The translations under genes were made by a program, and so were the position numbers. Below the pieces are notes generated by a model. That model saw only the letters and a program-made list of their open reading frames with translations. It did no database searches and was not told the origin of the DNA. A DNA stretch of 64,000 nt from Flavobacteriales bacterium. GTDB lineage: Bacteria > Bacteroidota > Bacteroidia > Flavobacteriales_F > PHOS-HE28. Shown here in pieces: positions 10,383 to 24,905 of this stretch (its first letter is position 1; every line of letters starts with the position of its first letter). The stretch spans positions 62,001 through 126,000 of the forward strand of contig JAEUSY010000042.1 in assembly GCA_016788295.1 (NCBI GenBank), in the 5' to 3' direction.

Positions 10383-10390
10383 TAATTTTG
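10383..10390 (+). promoter_or_regulatory. Bacteroidota-type -7 promoter element (TAATTTTG)
   Basis: TAATTTTG is an exact match to the Bacteroidota -7 consensus TAnnTTTG, 54 bases upstream of the ATG of the MbnP-like gene and in the only gap before the three-gene operon. No good -33 TTTG was seen at the usual spacing. Confidence 0.5.
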
Positions 10391-10444
10391 AACACCTGAT
10401 GTACCTGACAGTGAACAATGCTCAGGATCAGGCATTTCATCATC

Positions 10445-11212
10445 ATGCGCTACACTCACATCGCTTCTTTCGCCCTCGTGGTCCTGGTGCTTGCAGGCTG
10501 CCGCAAGGATGAGCCTATTTCGCCCACGCCGGTCCCGCCCGTGGCCACCACGGGTAAACTGCGGCTTACGTTGGTGCCCGAATGGGAGGGGCAGCCCATG
10601 CAGCGCTTCACCGAGTACCGCAATTTTTCCGATTATCGCATGACCATCGAGTTGCTCAAGATGCACATCGGCGAGATCCAGCTGCTCGACGCGGATACGG
10701 AGGCTTTCCTGGCCGATGCCACCTACTGGGACCTTGGCAATGGACCTGTTTCGCAGGAATGGACGGTGCCCATCGGCTCTTGGTCGGTGTTCCAGGCCGC
10801 TTTGGGGATCCGACCGGAACTGAACTATGCGGACCCCGCGGCCTATGGCCCGAACCATCCTCTTAACGTGAGCAATGGAACGTACTGGAATTGGGCCACG
10901 GGCTATCGCTTCGTGATGTTCGAAGGGCGTTATGATCCGGATCCAGCGAGCACGGCCACGCTTATCAGTGCCTATGCCATCCACACTGGCATGGATACCT
11001 GTTATACCGACCTCGACCTCACACCATCGACCCCCATTGTGATCGAGGGCGATAGCACAACGGAGGTGGTTGTGCGTATCGCGGTGGATCGCTTCTTCTA
11101 CTCATCCACAGGCTCCATTGATCTTGCCACGGAGAACACGGCACATGGCAACAATATCCCTCTTGCGCTGAAATTCACGCGTCACGTCAAAGCCTCCTTC
11201 TCGGTGCAATGA
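10445..11212 (+). CDS. MbnP-like periplasmic lipoprotein (255 aa)
   Basis: Start at 10445 gives MRYTHIASFALVVLVLAGC, a lipoprotein signal with cysteine 19 as the lipidated residue; an upstream ATG at 10418 only adds nine residues before the signal. The mature protein resembles the MbnP family (copper-binding partner proteins encoded beside dihaem MbnH enzymes): KLRLTLVPEW at the start, then the characteristic NGTYWNWATGYRFVMFEG near residues 144-161. In characterised MbnP a tryptophan is oxidised to kynurenine by MbnH; W148 and W150 are candidates here, by analogy only. The stop overlaps the start of the next gene (ATGA), and two dihaem peroxidases follow, which is the expected partner context. 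Likely role: extracytoplasmic copper binding. Confidence 0.78.
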   Translation: MRYTHIASFALVVLVLAGCRKDEPISPTPVPPVATTGKLRLTLVPEWEGQPMQRFTEYRNFSDYRMTIELLKMHIGEIQLLDADTEAFLADATYWDLGNGPVSQEWTVPIGSWSVFQAALGIRPELNYADPAAYGPNHPLNVSNGTYWNWATGYRFVMFEGRYDPDPASTATLISAYAIHTGMDTCYTDLDLTPSTPIVIEGDSTTEVVVRIAVDRFFYSSTGSIDLATENTAHGNNIPLALKFTRHVKASFSVQ

Positions 11213-12231
11213 AGCGTACCACAGGCATAGGGCTTGTTGCTTTGCTGGTGCTGACCTCCTGCCATAAGGATGTCGGCGACGATGCGGTCCAGACGATCGC
11301 TGATACCCCCTTCGCGCTACAGTTGCCTCCCGGTTTCCCTGTGCCGGTGACACCTGTCGACAATCCATTGACCACGGCTTCCGTGCAGTTGGGTAAAGCG
11401 CTCTTCTTTGATCCGCGGGTTTCCCGCGATGGAAGTATTTCCTGTGCTTCTTGTCACTTTCCTGAGCTGGCCTTCAGTGATCCGGCGCGTGTCAGCGTTG
11501 GGTTCGAGGGGCGAACGGGTTTCCGCAATTCACCCACACTGGGCAACGTGGGCTACCATACCGCCTTCTTCCGCGATGGCGGTGTGCCCACCTTGGAGCA
11601 ACAGGTCATCGCACCGATCCACGATGCGGTGGAGATGAACCACGACATCAATCTTGTGGCCGCTTTGCTCCGCAACGAGGAGCCCTATAAGCGGCTCAGC
11701 CAGCTGGCCTATGGTCGTGCATTGGATGCCTGGGTCATCACGCGGTCCATCGCCAACTACGAGCGCACCCTGGTCAGTGGCTGGTCTCGCTACGACCGGT
11801 ATCTACAGGGCGATCTGACCGCCCTTGATGAGCAGGAACTGCGCGGTCTTCAGCTGTTCACCAGTGCCGACCTCAACTGCACGGCCTGCCACAGCGGCTT
11901 CGACCTGAGCGACCATGCCTACCACAACGTGGGGCAGTATCTTGATTATAGCACAGACCCTGGTCGCCAACGGATCACTTTGCAGCCCGGTGACGTAGGC
12001 AAGTTCAAGACACCGACACTGCGTAACGTGGCGCTCACGGCTCCGTATATGCACGACGGGAGAATGCCTACGCTCAAGCATGTCATCGACCATTTTGCCA
12101 GTGGAGGTCTTCCGCACACCAACCTCGATACCGCCATGCGGACCTTTACGCTCACCGATGCGGAGAAGGCCGATCTTATTGCGTTCTTAAGCAGTCTTAC
12201 CGACGAACGTTCGCTTGATCAATTACCCTGA
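11209..12231 (+). CDS. MbnH/MauG-type dihaem cytochrome c peroxidase lipoprotein (340 aa)
   Basis: Begins MKRTTGIGLVALLVLTSC, a lipoprotein signal with lipidated C18. Two c-type haem sites are present: CASCH at 79-83 and CTACH at 224-228, the spacing of the bacterial dihaem peroxidase/MauG superfamily. Other family landmarks are KALFFDPRVSRDGSISC before the first haem, and KFKTPTLRNVALTAPYMHDGR before the C-terminus. It could be a peroxidase or, like MbnH, a tryptophan-modifying enzyme acting on the MbnP-like protein encoded just upstream; the sequence alone does not decide. The start codon overlaps the MbnP-like stop (ATGA) and the stop overlaps the next start (TGATG), so the three genes are translationally coupled. 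Confidence 0.88.
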   Translation: MKRTTGIGLVALLVLTSCHKDVGDDAVQTIADTPFALQLPPGFPVPVTPVDNPLTTASVQLGKALFFDPRVSRDGSISCASCHFPELAFSDPARVSVGFEGRTGFRNSPTLGNVGYHTAFFRDGGVPTLEQQVIAPIHDAVEMNHDINLVAALLRNEEPYKRLSQLAYGRALDAWVITRSIANYERTLVSGWSRYDRYLQGDLTALDEQELRGLQLFTSADLNCTACHSGFDLSDHAYHNVGQYLDYSTDPGRQRITLQPGDVGKFKTPTLRNVALTAPYMHDGRMPTLKHVIDHFASGGLPHTNLDTAMRTFTLTDAEKADLIAFLSSLTDERSLDQLP

Positions 12232-13367
12232 TGCGTAACAAGACCTTCCCGATCGTGATCATGCTCTTGGGCATGGTGGTGATGGTGGCCGCATGCCGAA
12301 AGGAAACAGAGACCGATCCGCCAGCTGGTGGTGGTGCCACCTACACCCCAACACCCTATACGCTGGCCATTCCCCCGAACTTTTCGGCCATGCCCATTCC
12401 GGCGGACAATCCGTTCACGGTGGAAGGCATCCGGTTGGGCAGGTTCCTGTTCTACGAGGAGCGTCTTTCGGGCAACAACACACAGAGTTGCGCTTCGTGT
12501 CATGCCCCGGCGAACGCTTTCAGCGACCATGGGCTGCAGTTCAGCGTGGGCATTGATGGCATTGCGGGCAACCGCAACTCCATGGTGCTGCAGAACCTGG
12601 GTTGGGAGAGTAGTTTTTTCTGGGATGGTCGTGCGGCCACCTTGGAACAGCAGGTCCTGGAACCGGTGGAGAACCCCATCGAGATGCACGAGACCTGGCC
12701 CAATGCCTTGGCCAAGCTGTTGGCCGATGAGGTATACCCGACCCTCTTCCTGCGCGCGTTCGGCACGGAGGGCGTCACCAAGGAACGGGCAGCCATGGCC
12801 ATGTCGCAGTTCCTTCGCACCATGATCAGTGGCGATTCCAAGTTCGACAAGTTCCAACGGGGCGAGGAACTGCTCACGATCGACGAACAGTTGGGGTTCC
12901 AGCTGACCTTGCTGGAAGGCGGCTTACCACCTGCAGTGCCTTTGGGTCAGGGCGGCGCAGACTGCTTCCATTGCCATCCGCATGGTGGGGGCCGCTTTAC
13001 CGATGGGATCCTCCGCAACAACGGCCTGGACCCCCAAGCGGCATGGACCGATCTTGGTCTGTATGATGTGACCGGCCTGCCATCGGACCGTGCCAAGTTC
13101 AAGACCCCGTCATTGCGCAATGTGGCGCTCTCGGCCCCCTACATGCACGATGGTCGATTCCAAACACTGGAACAGGTGATCGAGCATTACAATAGTGGTG
13201 GCCATCCGTCGCCCACCATCGACCCGAACATGAAGTTCACAACGGGAGGCCTGCAGCTTACTCCCGAGAAGAAAGTGCAGCTCATCGCCTTCCTGCACAC
13301 GCTCACCGATACGGCATTCGTGAACAACCCGGCGTTCCACGATCCGGGGCCTCCTACGTTGGATTGA
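12231..13367 (+). CDS. second MbnH/MauG-type dihaem cytochrome c peroxidase lipoprotein (378 aa)
   Basis: Begins MRNKTFPIVIMLLGMVVMVAAC, a lipoprotein signal with lipidated C22. Haem c motifs are CASCH at 87-91 and CFHCH at 245-249. The family features RLGRFLFYEERLSGNNTQSC and KFKTPSLRNVALSAPYMHDGR are conserved. It is a diverged paralogue of the preceding gene, with an insertion before the second haem (a GG/P-rich stretch around 228-243) and a longer C-terminus ending PGPPTLD. Start overlaps the upstream stop (TGATG). The presence of two related dihaem enzymes after one MbnP-like gene is the unusual point; one may modify MbnP and the other may act as an electron-transfer partner or true peroxidase, which is inference. 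Confidence 0.88.
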   Translation: MRNKTFPIVIMLLGMVVMVAACRKETETDPPAGGGATYTPTPYTLAIPPNFSAMPIPADNPFTVEGIRLGRFLFYEERLSGNNTQSCASCHAPANAFSDHGLQFSVGIDGIAGNRNSMVLQNLGWESSFFWDGRAATLEQQVLEPVENPIEMHETWPNALAKLLADEVYPTLFLRAFGTEGVTKERAAMAMSQFLRTMISGDSKFDKFQRGEELLTIDEQLGFQLTLLEGGLPPAVPLGQGGADCFHCHPHGGGRFTDGILRNNGLDPQAAWTDLGLYDVTGLPSDRAKFKTPSLRNVALSAPYMHDGRFQTLEQVIEHYNSGGHPSPTIDPNMKFTTGGLQLTPEKKVQLIAFLHTLTDTAFVNNPAFHDPGPPTLD

Positions 13368-13490: not shown

Positions 13491-14979
13491 CTGCCTCTAC
13501 GACAGCAACGTCCGGCGCCCAGTCGTAGCACCGCATGCGATCGGCGAACACCACTGGTTTGAAGATGCTCTGACCCAACAGCATGCGCGCACATTCCTGA
13601 ACACCCTCGGTAATACTGGGGTGGGGGTGTACCAGTTCGGCCAGCTCGCGCACAGGGATGCCTAACCTGATCATGAGCGCCACGGCCTCGATCGCGCTCG
13701 ATGCATGTTCGCCCACGGCACGCATGCCGAGGATGCGCATTTCCGCATCATTGCTCACGATCAATTTGAAGAAGCCCTTGGTGCGCCGCATCGCAATGGC
13801 CCGGGCCAGGCACGAGTAATCAATGCGCGCCACGCGGTGGGCAATGCCTTTCTTCCGGCATTCCTGTTCGTTCATGCCCACGCCCGCCACTTCGGGGTCG
13901 AGGAACATGATGGTGCTGATGTTGGCGTAGCTGATGCGGTCCGTGCGTCCGGCCCAGATGCGTTCCACTGCATGCCGTCCCTCCATTTCGCCAAGGTTGA
14001 CCAGCATGTTGCTGCCCGTGGCATCGCCTACGATGTGAATGTGGGGCTGTGCGGTGCTGGTTTCTTCCACAGGCACCAGTCCGGTGGCGGGATCAATGTG
14101 CAGTCCGGTGTGCTCCAGGCCAAGGCCATCAAGGTTGGCCACGCGACCAACAGAGAGCAATGCCTTTTCCACCACCACGGTCTCCGACACACCGTTGGCA
14201 TTGATCAGTGTGTATTGTACACCCCCATCCACCAGCCCGATCTGTTCCAGCTTCGAACTGCGGTGGATCACGACGCCCTTGCGCTCGAGGTTGCGGGCGA
14301 TCAATTCGCTCACATCGGCATCCTCGAATGGCAAGATCCGGTCCGCGCGGTCGATCAGGTGTACACGTGTGCCGCCAAGGTTGGCGAAGATGGTGGCGAA
14401 TTCGCAACCGATAACGCCGGCGCCAATGATGACGATACTCTTCGGTTGCTCCTCCATGTTGAAGATGCCGTCGCTCGACAGAATGCGATGTTCATCCGTT
14501 GCGATGGTAGGTAGGCTTCGTGGCCTACTACCCGTGGCGATGATGAAATGCTCAGCGCTGGCATCAACTACATGTTCGCCCCGTTCTATCCGCACCGTAC
14601 TTGTTCCGGTGAATCGCGCGTGCCCCCGTTCGTGGCAGAATGTGCCGGTGGCATTTGAGCCGAGCAACTGCATGTGGCAGGCATGCAGGTATTTACGCTC
14701 AAAGGCGGCTTCGTTCACCGTTCGTTGCACTTCCTCCCAGCTCAGGCGGAAGGGTTCGCGTCCGCGATCGCGCATCAGTTCGTTCGTGCTCGAAACCCGC
14801 TGTGCGATCTCCCACATGGTCTTTGACGTGAGCGCACCATTGTAGATGCCGGTGCCACCGATGCGGTCGCGCTCCACCAGAAGTACGCGCTTGCCAAGGT
14901 CAAGGGCGCGCATGGCGGCCGCATATCCCGAAGGTCCGCCGCCGATCACGCACAGGTCGAAGTGTTGCATGGCTTCCAT
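13486..14979 (-). CDS. pyridine nucleotide-disulfide oxidoreductase-like flavoprotein lacking the redox cysteines (497 aa)
   Basis: The fold is that of dihydrolipoamide dehydrogenase/soluble transhydrogenase: FAD-binding VIGGGPSGYAA at residues 11-21, NAD(P)-binding IIGAGVIGCEFA near 187-198, VGDATG for the second FAD contact, and an interface domain with HPHPSITEGVQ in place of the catalytic HxHPT/SxxE. The normal active-site disulfide GGTCLNxGCIPSK is replaced by GGTGIYNGALTSK, with G44 and A49 where the two cysteines should be. It therefore cannot use a CxxxxC dithiol relay. A soluble NAD(P) transhydrogenase-like or other direct hydride-transfer role is more plausible, but the substrate is unknown. 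Starts at 14979 or 14970 (MQHFDLCVIGGG) are both possible. It is monocistronic between convergent and divergent neighbours. Confidence 0.75.
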   Translation of the reverse strand: MEAMQHFDLCVIGGGPSGYAAAMRALDLGKRVLLVERDRIGGTGIYNGALTSKTMWEIAQRVSSTNELMRDRGREPFRLSWEEVQRTVNEAAFERKYLHACHMQLLGSNATGTFCHERGHARFTGTSTVRIERGEHVVDASAEHFIIATGSRPRSLPTIATDEHRILSSDGIFNMEEQPKSIVIIGAGVIGCEFATIFANLGGTRVHLIDRADRILPFEDADVSELIARNLERKGVVIHRSSKLEQIGLVDGGVQYTLINANGVSETVVVEKALLSVGRVANLDGLGLEHTGLHIDPATGLVPVEETSTAQPHIHIVGDATGSNMLVNLGEMEGRHAVERIWAGRTDRISYANISTIMFLDPEVAGVGMNEQECRKKGIAHRVARIDYSCLARAIAMRRTKGFFKLIVSNDAEMRILGMRAVGEHASSAIEAVALMIRLGIPVRELAELVHPHPSITEGVQECARMLLGQSIFKPVVFADRMRCYDWAPDVAVVEAA

Positions 14980-15094
14980 GGATGGAGGTACAGCGCCGTT
15001 CTACGTCGAAAACCAGAACAGGTTCACTCCATCAGTATTTCAGACACTATCCATCGTGCTCTGCGAGCTGTTCGTCGCTCCTCATTCCTGTGCC

Positions 15095-18000
15095 ATGTAT
15101 CCTTTCAACGTCCCCCGGCGTACGAGGGGCACGAACATCCACTACGTGTATCGCTCGCTTACCTCACTGATCGTTGCGCTCGCCTCCATGGCAGGCGTTG
15201 CACAGTGCCCGCTCCTGTACGACTATTACGGTGTACCGGTGGCGGCGCCGCAGTGGTACAGTTGTTCGGGAACGGCATACACGCTGCTGATCGCCACACC
15301 GCAGACCGTTGGTCCATATACGATCAACTGGGGTGATGGTAGTCCACTTCAGAGCGGTGCAGCTCTGATGCCGCCGCTCACGGTGAGCCACGTATACCCG
15401 GGCACGGTCGGCACCTACACGGTAACGTTCACTGAGGTGGCCACCGGCTGTGTGGTCACCGGTCTGCTCACCATGGAGCAGAGCACCAGTGCATCCATCC
15501 AGATACCTGTGGGTGGTCTCACTCAGGTTTGTGCTCCTCACGCGGTCGAGTTCATCAATAGCAGCACCAACGTATCGCCGAACACGGTGTTCACGTGGGA
15601 TTTCGGTGATGGTTCACCCTTGCTGACATTCGATCACACGAATTGGGGTCAGACCATTTCCCATACCTATCAGCAAGGCACAGTGGATTGCGAGACCACG
15701 GTGACCCTCACTGCAGAGAACACCTGTAACACGCTGCAGGGCGGTGCCAGTTTCGCAACCTTCAACCCCATACGTATCTGGGATATTGACGATGCCAGTA
15801 TCGCCGCGAGCGCGACCCTGCTCTGCTGGCCCGATCGCACGGTGACATTCGCGAACACCACGGAGCGGAACTGTTTCCAGCAGGGTAACATCTTCCAGCG
15901 CTACGAGTACTGGAACTTCGGGGATTACTGGGGTGCGGGCCAGGACTCCATCATCGATTGGTCGCCATGGCCACCCACCTTCCCGCGCACCATTCAATAC
16001 CCCGGGATCGGCACGTACGAGGTAATGCTCCTGGATAGCAATTACTGCGGTATTGATACGGCGTTCATCACGATCAACATCGTGCCACCACCGTCGGTGT
16101 CGCTTACGGTAACCCCGGATACCATCTGTGCAGGAGAGACCGCATTCTTCGATCAGACCACTACTGGTGGTGCGAACTACTTCCAATGGAACTATGGCTC
16201 GGGTAGTGGCTTCCAGTGGACCGGCGCTGGTGATCAGTCCTTCACCTACAACACGCCTGGGACCTACACCGTCTCCTATACAGCAAGCATTCAGGGCGCA
16301 ACTGCCGGTTGTGCCGATACGGCCACGGTGGTCGTCACGGTACTTCCAAGACCCACTGCAGCGTTCACGCTCGACCAGCATGCAGCGTGCGATTCCATAA
16401 CGGTCGCCATCACGAATTCCTCCGTCAGTGCGGTATCCCATTTCTGGGACTTCGGTGATGGCACCACCAGTACGTTGGCCTCACCACCGCCGCACACCTA
16501 TGTAGGTCCCGGCGATCGCACGATAACGCTCACGGTTACCAATGCCCTGGGTTGCACGCACAGCGTATCGCAGGTGGTACATGTGTATGCACCGCCCACA
16601 GTGGGTATCCAAGTCACCAATCTCTGTTTTGGTGAAATGGCCTTGTTCACGCCGGTCATCGTCACTGATGGTGGGAACCCGGTCACCAGTTGGTCCTGGG
16701 ACTTCGGTGATGGTACGACAAGTATGCAACAATCACCCAGCCACCAGTATGCCTCGGCCGGCACCTATGTCATATCGCTGGCCGTTACTACACCCTATTG
16801 CGGTAACTCTGGCGTACAGTGGGTCAGTGTGCAACCCCGGCCTGTAGCGGCTTTCGCACCGGACGCTGTGCTTGGATGTTCGCCGCTCACTGTGAGTTTC
16901 ACCAACAACAGCACTGGTGCATCGTTGTACACGTGGTCGTTCGGAGACGGAGGAAGCTCCGTTGCACTGGACCCGTCGTACACCTTCTTCAACACGACAT
17001 CGAGCGATACTGTTTTTACAGTCGAATTGATCGCTGCATCCCCATTCGGGTGTGCGGATACCACGTTGCAGAGCATCACAGTAGCGCCCGGTGTTGTCGC
17101 TGCGTTCGCGCACAATGCCCAGCCAGGCTGCGCTCCGCTCGATGTCGACTTTGTGAACAACAGTACAGGGGCCACTTCCTATCTATGGGACTTTGGTGAT
17201 GGTGCCACGAGCACTGCAGCTGTGCCATCGCACACCTACGTGAACACCACGTACTTCCTCAATATCCATACAATAACGCTCACCGCATATTCACCAGCAG
17301 GTTGCCAGGCCAGCACCTCGCAACAGGTCATGGTGTATCCCACTCCGAACTTCACGTTCGTAGCACAGCCAGATAGCGGTTGCAGCCCGCTAACGGTCAC
17401 TTTCCCGAGCGTAGTTGGAGCGGTGAGCTATCAGTGGTCGTTCGGTGATGGAGCAACAGCGACCGGACCATCGCCCTCCCATACCTACATCAACAGTACC
17501 ACGAATGAACTGGTGCTGCCTGTCACTCTTGTCGGTGCCAATGCCTTTGGATGTGTGGATACCGCCACGGCCTCCGTTACCGTTTACCCGAACCCTACGG
17601 CACAGTTCACGCTGTCCAATGCACAAGGTTGTCATCCGGTTACGGCCCAACTGACCAACCTCAGCACCGGTGCCGCACAGTTCGCATGGAACTATGGCGA
17701 TGGTTCCGTTTCGGACACCAGCGTCGCTGTTCACGAGCATACTTGGTACAACTTCGCCGGTCCGGACGCTGTGGTCCGCACGGTTAGCCTGGTCGCCACC
17801 ACCACACATGGATGCACGAGCTCCATGTCACTGCCAGTGGAGGTATACCCCGATGTGACGGCAGCATTCGTTGCGGATTCAGTGGGGTGTGCCCCATTGC
17901 CTGTCCAGTTCGTCAACTTGTCCAGTGGTGCAGTTTCATACGCTTGGACGTTCGGTGACGGGCAGTACTCTACAGCCACTTCGCCACTGCACACCTATTT

Positions 18001-19657
18001 CAACCAAGGGCTTTCGGATGTGGTCTTCTATCCTGCTTTGGTAGCGACCTCCAGCTTCGGTTGTGCCGACACGACGAGCGCGCAGATAAGGGTCCACCCA
18101 CAACCGCTTGCCCAATTCGTGCCGGGCATTGTAAGCGGTTGCCAGCCTTTGGTGGTGCCCTTCCAGGACCTGAGCATTGGTGCTGAGCAATTGGATTGGC
18201 AGTTCGGTGATGGCAGCACGTTCAGTGCGGGTCCTGGAAACGTGTCGCATGCCTATACACATACATCGAACGTGCCCGTGGTGTTCAATGCCACGTTGGT
18301 GGGCACATCTGCATTCGGTTGCACCGATACGGTGAGCGCACCTATTCAGGTCTTCCCCGCCATAACAGCCGCATTCACTGTGAATGAGGCCGGCTGTTCT
18401 CCTGTAGACGTGGTTCTCGTGAACCAGAGCAGTGGAGCATCCAGTTTCATCTGGGACATGGGTGACGGCATCACGTTAATGGGTGATGCGCCAGCTTACA
18501 CGTATGTCAATAACACACCCTTCGACATCACTCGGACCATCACGCTCACGGCCACCTCACCCTATGGTTGCGTTTCCACCATGACGCGTCAGGTGAGCGT
18601 TTATCCCGTTCCCAGTGCAGCGTTCATGGCCACGCCGTTCACGCAGCAGTATCCGAACGCCTCTGTCACGCTTACGAACAACAGCGCGCCCGGCAACTGG
18701 TCACACAACTGGAGCTTTGGCGATGGAGGGTCGTCGGCATTGCAAGCTCCTGGGTCTTACACCTACGGCACATGGGGCACGTTCACCATCACGTTGGTGG
18801 TATCTGGTACGTTCTGCACCGATACGGCGACGCAGGACGTTGTCATCACTCCGCCTCTTCCAACGGCCAGCTTCCTTGGTCAGGGAATGGGTTGTGCACC
18901 GCTCACTGTCTCCTTCGACAATACCTCACTGCAAGGGTTGAGCTATCAGTGGAATTTCGGTGACGGAGGCACAAGCACGGCCGACGAACCGACCTACACC
19001 TACAACGTTCCAGGTACCTACACGGTGACCCTGACGGCATACGGTATCGGGGGAGGCGTGAGCACGGCGGTGAAGGTTGACTCGGTGGTTGTGCACCCGA
19101 GGGCCACGGCGTTCTTCGTGTTGCAACCGGAAGAGGTGGTCATTCCCAGCCAGCCGGTATTCACGTACAACCTATCGGCCAATGCGACCAGCTTCCTGTG
19201 GGATATGGGTGACGGTGCAACGTACACCACCTTCAACCCGGTGCACTACTATCAGGCAGCTGGCGAGTACGATGTGATGCTGATCGCCAATAACCAGTGG
19301 AACTGTCCGGATACGTTCATGCTTCAAAGCGCCACTACGGCCATGGCCAGCGGCGATATCCGGTTCCCGAACGCATTCACACCGGGCAGTGGTGGGCCAA
19401 CAGGCGGGGCCTACGATCCGCGCAGTTATGATAATGACGTGTTCTTCCCGGTCCATGAGGGCGTAGAGAAGTACCGCCTCGAGATCTTCAATCGTTGGGG
19501 CGAACTGCTGTTCGTCTCGGAGGATGTGGCCGTTGGTTGGGATGGCTGGTACCGCGGCCGCCCGGCTAAGCAGGATGTCTATGTCTGGAAATGTCATGCC
19601 ACGTTCAGTGATGGTCGCGAGACCGTGCTGAAAGGGGATGTCACCTTATTGCGCTGA
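15095..19657 (+). CDS. giant secreted PKD-repeat protein with type IX (type B) sorting domain (1520 aa)
   Basis: Start at 15095 gives a basic leader followed by a hydrophobic stretch (LTSLIVALASMAGVAQ) as a signal peptide; the frame is open further upstream but lies in the divergent gene. I count about sixteen PKD-like modules marked by W-x-[FMY]-G-D-G signatures (for example WDFGDGTTSTLASP, WSFGDGGSSVALDP, WDMGDGITLMGDAP), each about 75-95 residues, filling residues ~65-1420. The C-terminus (FPNAFTPGSGGP ... LEIFNRWGELLFVSE ... GDVTLLR) is the type B sorting domain. It should be a long surface fibre or adhesin exported by the type IX system. Downstream, a PD40 protein and a PorP/SprF protein follow with four bases and an overlap respectively, the usual arrangement for such cargo and its outer-membrane anchor. 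Confidence 0.92.
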   Translation: MYPFNVPRRTRGTNIHYVYRSLTSLIVALASMAGVAQCPLLYDYYGVPVAAPQWYSCSGTAYTLLIATPQTVGPYTINWGDGSPLQSGAALMPPLTVSHVYPGTVGTYTVTFTEVATGCVVTGLLTMEQSTSASIQIPVGGLTQVCAPHAVEFINSSTNVSPNTVFTWDFGDGSPLLTFDHTNWGQTISHTYQQGTVDCETTVTLTAENTCNTLQGGASFATFNPIRIWDIDDASIAASATLLCWPDRTVTFANTTERNCFQQGNIFQRYEYWNFGDYWGAGQDSIIDWSPWPPTFPRTIQYPGIGTYEVMLLDSNYCGIDTAFITINIVPPPSVSLTVTPDTICAGETAFFDQTTTGGANYFQWNYGSGSGFQWTGAGDQSFTYNTPGTYTVSYTASIQGATAGCADTATVVVTVLPRPTAAFTLDQHAACDSITVAITNSSVSAVSHFWDFGDGTTSTLASPPPHTYVGPGDRTITLTVTNALGCTHSVSQVVHVYAPPTVGIQVTNLCFGEMALFTPVIVTDGGNPVTSWSWDFGDGTTSMQQSPSHQYASAGTYVISLAVTTPYCGNSGVQWVSVQPRPVAAFAPDAVLGCSPLTVSFTNNSTGASLYTWSFGDGGSSVALDPSYTFFNTTSSDTVFTVELIAASPFGCADTTLQSITVAPGVVAAFAHNAQPGCAPLDVDFVNNSTGATSYLWDFGDGATSTAAVPSHTYVNTTYFLNIHTITLTAYSPAGCQASTSQQVMVYPTPNFTFVAQPDSGCSPLTVTFPSVVGAVSYQWSFGDGATATGPSPSHTYINSTTNELVLPVTLVGANAFGCVDTATASVTVYPNPTAQFTLSNAQGCHPVTAQLTNLSTGAAQFAWNYGDGSVSDTSVAVHEHTWYNFAGPDAVVRTVSLVATTTHGCTSSMSLPVEVYPDVTAAFVADSVGCAPLPVQFVNLSSGAVSYAWTFGDGQYSTATSPLHTYFNQGLSDVVFYPALVATSSFGCADTTSAQIRVHPQPLAQFVPGIVSGCQPLVVPFQDLSIGAEQLDWQFGDGSTFSAGPGNVSHAYTHTSNVPVVFNATLVGTSAFGCTDTVSAPIQVFPAITAAFTVNEAGCSPVDVVLVNQSSGASSFIWDMGDGITLMGDAPAYTYVNNTPFDITRTITLTATSPYGCVSTMTRQVSVYPVPSAAFMATPFTQQYPNASVTLTNNSAPGNWSHNWSFGDGGSSALQAPGSYTYGTWGTFTITLVVSGTFCTDTATQDVVITPPLPTASFLGQGMGCAPLTVSFDNTSLQGLSYQWNFGDGGTSTADEPTYTYNVPGTYTVTLTAYGIGGGVSTAVKVDSVVVHPRATAFFVLQPEEVVIPSQPVFTYNLSANATSFLWDMGDGATYTTFNPVHYYQAAGEYDVMLIANNQWNCPDTFMLQSATTAMASGDIRFPNAFTPGSGGPTGGAYDPRSYDNDVFFPVHEGVEKYRLEIFNRWGELLFVSEDVAVGWDGWYRGRPAKQDVYVWKCHATFSDGRETVLKGDVTLLR

Positions 19658-24227: not shown

Positions 24228-24905
24228 TCAGTGTTCCTGCTCCTCCAACAGCTTGCGGATGTCGCCCAGCAGGCGGTCCACGTCGGAAGGCTGCGTGCCA
24301 TCATAGAACCCGCGGATGCGTCGCAGAGGGTCCACCAGCACGAAGTTCTCGGTGTGTACGAAATCATCAGGCCCACCATCGCCTTCGTCCAATGCGGCGA
24401 AGTAGGAGCGGCGCGCAAGGTGGTAGATCTGTTTGCGGTCGCCGGTGAGCAAGCGCCAACGTTTTGGGTCCGCGCCATGAAGCTCGGCATAGGCGGCCAA
24501 CACCGGCACGCTGTCGATCTCGGGGGTCACCGAATGGGAAAGGAGCATCACTCGGTCCTCGTCCTTGTAGGCATCCTGAACGCGGGTCATCTGCACGGTC
24601 ATCTTGGGGCAGATGGTGGCGCAGGTGGTGAAGAAGAAGTCGGCCACGATGATGCGGTCACCAACATCCGCAAGTCTTACGGTGTCACCGTTCTGGTCAA
24701 GAAGTTCAAAGTCCAGGATGTGATGTTCGCCACTTGCGCCGCGCACGCTCGGGTCCACCAGCCGCGGGTCCAATTGGGCGGGATGGTAGATGGGTAGTTC
24801 AGCGTTGGGCCGGATGATGAAATAACCTGCCGTGACCGCCACTGCGAACACGCCTAACAGGAGCATGATGCGTACCGCGAAGGATGGGCCGTTGCCGTTG
24901 GCCAT
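24228..24905 (-). CDS. SCO1/SenC family protein (225 aa)
   Basis: A membrane-anchored thioredoxin-fold protein: one N-terminal membrane segment (residues ~12-31), then the SCO motif FFFTTCATICP with C95 and C99 (CxxxC) and the third copper ligand H184 in FVHTENF. All three copper-binding residues are present. SCO proteins deliver copper to, or reduce the thiols of, the CuA site of cytochrome oxidase. It is preceded by one base after the DUF2490 gene's stop at 24907, so it is the third gene of a lipoprotein-DUF2490-SCO operon. No oxidase genes are in the window, so its target is not visible. Confidence 0.9.
   Translation of the reverse strand: MANGNGPSFAVRIMLLLGVFAVAVTAGYFIIRPNAELPIYHPAQLDPRLVDPSVRGASGEHHILDFELLDQNGDTVRLADVGDRIIVADFFFTTCATICPKMTVQMTRVQDAYKDEDRVMLLSHSVTPEIDSVPVLAAYAELHGADPKRWRLLTGDRKQIYHLARRSYFAALDEGDGGPDDFVHTENFVLVDPLRRIRGFYDGTQPSDVDRLLGDIRKLLEEQEH

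Follow-up and report, generated by a model that had tools for sequence, protein, structure and literature searches.

The MbnP/MbnH pair, known in methanotrophs, is a recent example of how a protein can acquire a metal ligand by converting one of its own tryptophans. In the structure of MbnP, copper is said to be held by His, Met, solvent and kynurenine (Kyn), and the kynurenine is reportedly the first Trp of a WxW motif. Here we describe a Bacteroidota variant of this system, found in a 64 kb stretch of DNA from a Flavobacteriales genome (hereafter the window), where a three-gene operon encodes an MbnP-family lipoprotein followed by two di-haem lipoproteins, E1 and E2. E2 is an MbnH-like enzyme, while E1 is an MbnH/MauG paralogue without the tryptophan that lies between the two haems. 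This Trp-less di-haem partner beside the canonical enzyme is a consistent new feature of a known system. A search of one literature collection found no paper on MbnP in Bacteroidota.

The chemistry of related enzymes provides a frame for comparison. In MauG, Trp93 carries charge resonance between the haems, and Gln103, Pro107 and Glu equivalents shape the pocket for peroxide chemistry (PMC6405878). BthA lacks the same Trp (it has Ser257 there) and still forms bis-Fe(IV) (PMC6405878). CorA holds Cu(I) by Kyn, two His and water, and has a MauG-like partner, CorB (PMC3912023). To judge by the title of a study of MbnP/MbnH cited in PMC9426467, copper binding in that system depends on kynurenine formation.

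The operon lies on the forward strand. Gene 1, encoding the MbnP-family lipoprotein, spans 10418-11212, with a likely start at 10445; this alternative to 10418 agrees with the signal peptide and gives a protein of 255 aa. The E1 gene (11209-12231) overlaps gene 1 by 4 nt (ATGA), and the E2 gene (12231-13367) overlaps that of E1 by 1 nt (TGATG). All three proteins have a lipobox cysteine (LAGC, LTSC and VAAC), and each enzyme carries two CxxCH motifs (CASCH/CTACH in E1, CASCH/CFHCH in E2). An earlier sequence-only reading of the window had reported these genes, overlaps, lipoboxes and haem motifs, and the coordinates and motifs bear it out.

A canonical and a Trp-less di-haem enzyme

Family searches with profile HMMs, as that reading had proposed, placed gene 1 in PF20243 and both enzymes in PF03150 (CCP_MauG), with scores of 173.8 bits for E1 and 184.1 bits for E2. 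MbnH (6e1c) is the nearest solved structure for both, the E2 match having an E-value of 2.3e-53. Against the curated MauG model, which needs 443.85, the enzymes reach 227 and 174. We read their key residues from an alignment with MbnH 6e1c and cytochrome c peroxidase 1iqc. E2 has all of the MbnH-like hallmarks: two CxxCH motifs, an inter-haem Trp (Trp131, codon 12621-12623, present in 35/35 E2 orthologues), a Tyr at the axial ligand position (Tyr320, codon 13188-13190, 34/34 orthologues) and a Gln/Pro/Glu pocket. E1 lacks two of them. Arg122 (codon 11572-11574) stands in place of the inter-haem Trp, equivalent to MauG Trp93, and among 35 E1 orthologues this position is never Trp and is Arg in 28. 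At the axial Tyr position, equivalent to MauG Tyr294, E1 has Phe296 (codon 12094-12096), the usual residue in this genus, and its clade has Phe in 28/35 and Tyr in 7/35. The distal Gln, Pro and Glu are retained in both enzymes (Q132/Q141, P136/P145 and E142/E151 in E1/E2). The axial Met of classical bacterial cytochrome c peroxidase is absent from both, the aligned residue being Phe in E1 and Tyr in E2. The description of E1 and E2 as two MbnH/MauG-type enzymes therefore stands on family and nearest structure, but they are not both ordinary members of the type. The structural model of E1 has a pLDDT below 50 at residues 67-107, around the haem pocket, and no geometry was drawn from it. Purifying selection on E1 equals that on E2 (dN/dS ~0.11 for each), and E1 is therefore not decaying.

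A maximum-likelihood tree separates the E1 sequences, as a single clade, from every Trp-bearing enzyme (support 90/83). A wider tree, built with the Trp column removed, likewise unites 45 Trp-less sequences, drawn from several classes and families of Bacteroidota, in one clade (SH 0.95). By its sequence, E1 is a member of an ancient clade that never has the inter-haem Trp. A recent duplication giving rise to E1 and E2 was considered and rejected on account of these separate deep clades. The two kinds of enzyme also occur together: 40 of 41 two-enzyme MbnP operons hold one Trp and one Trp-less enzyme. A further mixed pair (RY/WY) is found at L063, where our script took a fused frame as a single enzyme. 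In single-enzyme operons, 33/41 enzymes keep the Trp, with the misread L063 among the other eight. These counts are not independent events, as the Trp/Trp-less split arose once and was then kept. The lone two-enzyme operon with the inter-haem Trp in both enzymes is L161:1-6501, in which the second enzyme reads FNWDGSS. Elsewhere in the window's own genome, contig C35 encodes one Trp/Tyr di-haem enzyme standing alone (L082:5120-6250).

The MbnP-like protein and its predicted copper site

Gene 1 matches the broad Pfam MbnP family PF20243 at 69.4 bits, above the cut-off of 27. A model of the protein, made from 43 relatives, has a pLDDT of 95, and its sole clear Foldseek match is the solved MbnP structure 7l6g (E 2.9e-08). 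The VIA comparison with 7l6g gave a Z of 16.4 over 198 aligned residues, with the runner-up at 5.5. A phmmer search of the protein against the PDB returned no MbnP; 7l6g was reached only through profile and fold searches. The dN/dS of the gene is ~0.15.

The residues expected to matter most are well conserved among relatives. The WxW motif, W148-N149-W150 (codons 10886-10894), aligns to the WNW of 7l6g, and W148, the predicted kynurenine, is present in 62/63 relatives and W150 in 57/63. Both had been proposed as candidate residues from the sequence alone, and the conservation upholds that choice; the numbering fits the start at 10445. His180 (codon 10982-10984), a predicted copper ligand, aligns with the histidine of the MbnP HxGS motif and is kept in 55/63. 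His234 (codon 11144-11146), the predicted second ligand, is kept in 48/63 and sits at the Met of the proteobacterial CMSxP motif. In a C-terminal comparison with plasmid-encoded MbnPs of Proteobacteria and Cyanobacteria, the CMSxP of the proteobacterial proteins becomes AHGN in gene 1, which has neither the CMSxP methionine nor the Cys motif of TIGR04052-type proteins. With a profile built from Met-type MbnPs, the alignment to 7l6g still stopped short of the C-terminus.

The state of this site goes together with the number of enzymes. Where an operon has two enzymes, the enzyme-proximal MbnP carries both His180 and His234 in 41/41 cases and both WxW tryptophans in 39/41. In single-enzyme operons, the WxW motif is also well conserved, and position 234 is often Met (12/41) or some other residue. 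If the Met that His234 replaces is a copper ligand in MbnP, as is reported, the gene 1 protein should have a Kyn/His/His site of the kind found in CorA and MopE, and not the Kyn/His/Met site of methanotroph MbnP.

Additional MbnPs were observed at several loci. Tandem MbnPs occur at L062, L065, L046, L057, L060 and L073, the upstream copy often being without His180 or His234. The window's own genome has a second MbnP on contig C59 (L078:17516-18223), which has no adjoining di-haem enzyme; the gene before it encodes a beta-barrel-like protein that contains a CDVCG motif.

Orthologues from other lineages offer a clue to location. Three MbnPs that accompany the same enzyme pair (L165:4517-5560, L166:1396-2394 and L070:3954-4925) have, in place of the lipobox, a sorting tail for type IX secretion (PF18962). 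These tails support the view that MbnPs work at or outside the cell surface, and the MbnP-like protein, a lipoprotein by its sequence, is probably surface-located. Of the surface copper unit suggested by the sequence-only reading, the surface location is thus probable, while sequence does not separate copper acquisition from copper sensing.

Genomic setting and distribution

PF20243 is present in 52/58 relatives, and a phylum-wide sample of 296 Bacteroidota genomes has it in 78. The E1-E2 pair occurs in 29/35 same-genus genomes, almost always directly behind MbnP; two of these loci are truncated at contig ends, and in some a second MbnP precedes the first. The operon stands beside the same helicase in ~25 loci of the genus and also in a genome of another family (L167), and the order MbnP-E1-E2 recurs in other Bacteroidota classes. 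From this wide occurrence and kept place it follows that the pairing of two enzymes is of long standing, passed on by vertical descent, and no local oddity, and the earlier view of it as unusual in Bacteroidota was mistaken. On PLSDB plasmids (L181-L185), the di-haem gene beside MbnP is labelled 'methanobactin export MATE transporter MbnM', a name that is probably an error given the gene's two CxxCH motifs.

The exact TAATTTTG box that had been noticed in front of the operon is present at 10383-10390 on the forward strand. It is of the TAnnTTTG type, which we take to be the usual Bacteroidota -7 promoter element. The pattern occurs just twice on the forward strand of the window, and a TAnnTTTG box is found at a similar place upstream of the operon in 17 of the 28 genus loci counted, which together argue that the box is not there by chance. 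The idea that it is a special regulatory signal was dropped in favor of an ordinary promoter.

The operon stands alone, since it is flanked upstream by a divergent gene for a UvrD/RecB-type helicase with a nuclease domain and downstream by an opposite-strand gene for a dihydrolipoamide-dehydrogenase-like flavoprotein. The SCO protein at 24228, pointed out previously as a further copper protein in the window, is a genuine family member (PF02630, 83.5 bits). We rejected it as part of the system, as it lies 11 kb off in an unrelated gene group. Shortly downstream of the operon, 14846-19657 encodes a very long PKD-repeat protein with 11 PKD_4 matches and a weak, sub-cut-off match to the type IX C-terminal signal domain. 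At L167, a PKD protein also follows the operon (536 aa, its frame cut by the stretch end).

Proposed maturation and comparison with known systems

From the families, fold, residues, conservation and co-occurrence observed, we infer kynurenine, copper, a division of labor between the enzymes and copper capture at the surface, and propose the following model. The operon would supply an outer-membrane MbnP lipoprotein and two matched modifying enzymes of the di-haem type. Each of the three proteins would be exported and lipidated, with haem attachment in the periplasm, where modification would also take place prior to export of MbnP to the surface. E2, with its five-coordinate haem pocket (Gln/Pro/Glu), inter-haem Trp and axial Tyr, would react with peroxide and oxidise W148, the first Trp of WxW, to kynurenine. 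One copper ion would then be held by the kynurenine, His180 and His234, and the mature product would probably take part in copper capture at the cell surface. Judging from sequence, E2 alone should be able to do the job of MbnH, because the enzyme in most single-enzyme operons is of the Trp/Tyr type, and E1 would therefore be an added partner. In this picture E1 would work alongside E2 in one maturation process, with a specialised role that E2 does not duplicate; most likely it takes part in a complex or carries out a separate peroxide-dependent step. By analogy with BthA, E1 may be enzymatically active. We assign a probability of roughly 0.6 to this reading, in which E2 makes kynurenine from W148, with E1 as its specialised partner, and the outcome is a copper site of the Kyn/His/His type on the cell surface. 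A bolder version, in which E1 and E2 act jointly, probably complexed or one after the other, and build a Kyn/His/His copper site beyond the reach of one MbnH-type enzyme, is tentative and on balance unlikely.

Several points weigh against the proposed maturation. Gene 1 scores 30.3 bits against TIGR04052, the curated MbnP_like_WxW equivalog, where 140 is the cut-off, so the label MbnP-like holds for the broad family and the fold but not for the equivalog. Both enzymes are also below the cut-off of the MbnH equivalog TIGR04039 (362.85), with 262 bits for E1 and 254.7 for E2. In the window, no gene for a TonB receptor, a copper chaperone or methanobactin adjoins the operon. Seven Trp-less enzymes are the sole visible enzyme beside an MbnP. 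At one same-genus locus (L045:3812-4636), the enzyme-proximal MbnP has Leu for the first WxW Trp and lies beside an intact-looking E1. Finally, loss of the inter-haem Trp is no proof of lost function, as BthA demonstrates.

The equivalog score of gene 1 and the missing copper neighbors would suit a generic surface lipoprotein that is modified for some other purpose and involves neither copper nor kynurenine. However, such a protein is improbable, because WxW, His180 and His234 hardly vary and the model has the MbnP fold. The similar PF03150 and TIGR04039 scores of E1 and E2 could likewise be taken to mean that both are ordinary, redundant MbnHs, the second copy being a recent duplication for dose. 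This is very hard to credit and largely refuted by the tree, given separate deep clades, steadily different key residues and co-presence across several families.

Other explanations concern what E1 does. It could scavenge peroxide or transfer electrons as a cytochrome, protecting or supplying the system without acting directly on MbnP, a possible but unlikely role that fits its intact Gln/Pro/Glu pocket, its two haems and its lack of residues for long-range substrate oxidation. Tight operon coupling to MbnP and E2 and the link to His234 instead suggest an MbnP-directed function, and the axial Met of the peroxidases is absent. Alternatively, two distinct enzymes beside a WxW motif that is almost always complete might divide the work, for example with one on W148 and the other on W150, or each at its own stage in a series of oxygenations that leads to kynurenine, to produce a doubly modified site. 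We find this rather doubtful, since WxW is kept in single-enzyme operons and two tryptophans need not require two enzymes. Were the bolder version true, two-enzyme maturation would represent a kind of MauG-type chemistry not yet described and common across Bacteroidota. This Bacteroidota variant could serve as a natural test of whether the inter-haem Trp is needed in kynurenine formation, and the pairing of a Trp-less with an intact enzyme also allows one to ask why two different enzymes are kept.

The closest described system is MbnP/MbnH of Methylosinus trichosporium OB3b (7l6g and 6e1c), which shares with this locus the MbnP fold, the WxW motif, the conserved His and a neighboring MauG-like di-haem enzyme that has both Trp and Tyr, here E2. 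It differs in that here there is no methanobactin operon, there are two enzymes, one of them without the Trp, and the proteins are lipoproteins; in the MbnP itself, His234 takes the place of the CMSxP Met and the four-Cys motif is missing. CorA/CorB and MopE/SACCP of methanotrophs resemble the predicted system in having a surface copper protein with kynurenine and two His, along with a partner gene for a MauG-like di-haem enzyme, a relation to the MbnP described here that is by analogy only. MauG of methylamine dehydrogenase is likewise a di-haem enzyme that oxidises its partner's Trp, and E2 keeps the equivalents of its Trp93 and Tyr294, but MauG makes tryptophan tryptophylquinone and has no MbnP partner. 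For E1, the nearest parallel is BthA of Burkholderia, a di-haem enzyme with a Gln/Pro/Glu pocket and no inter-haem Trp. In contrast to E1, BthA is larger, belongs to another branch and is a peroxidase without an MbnP partner.
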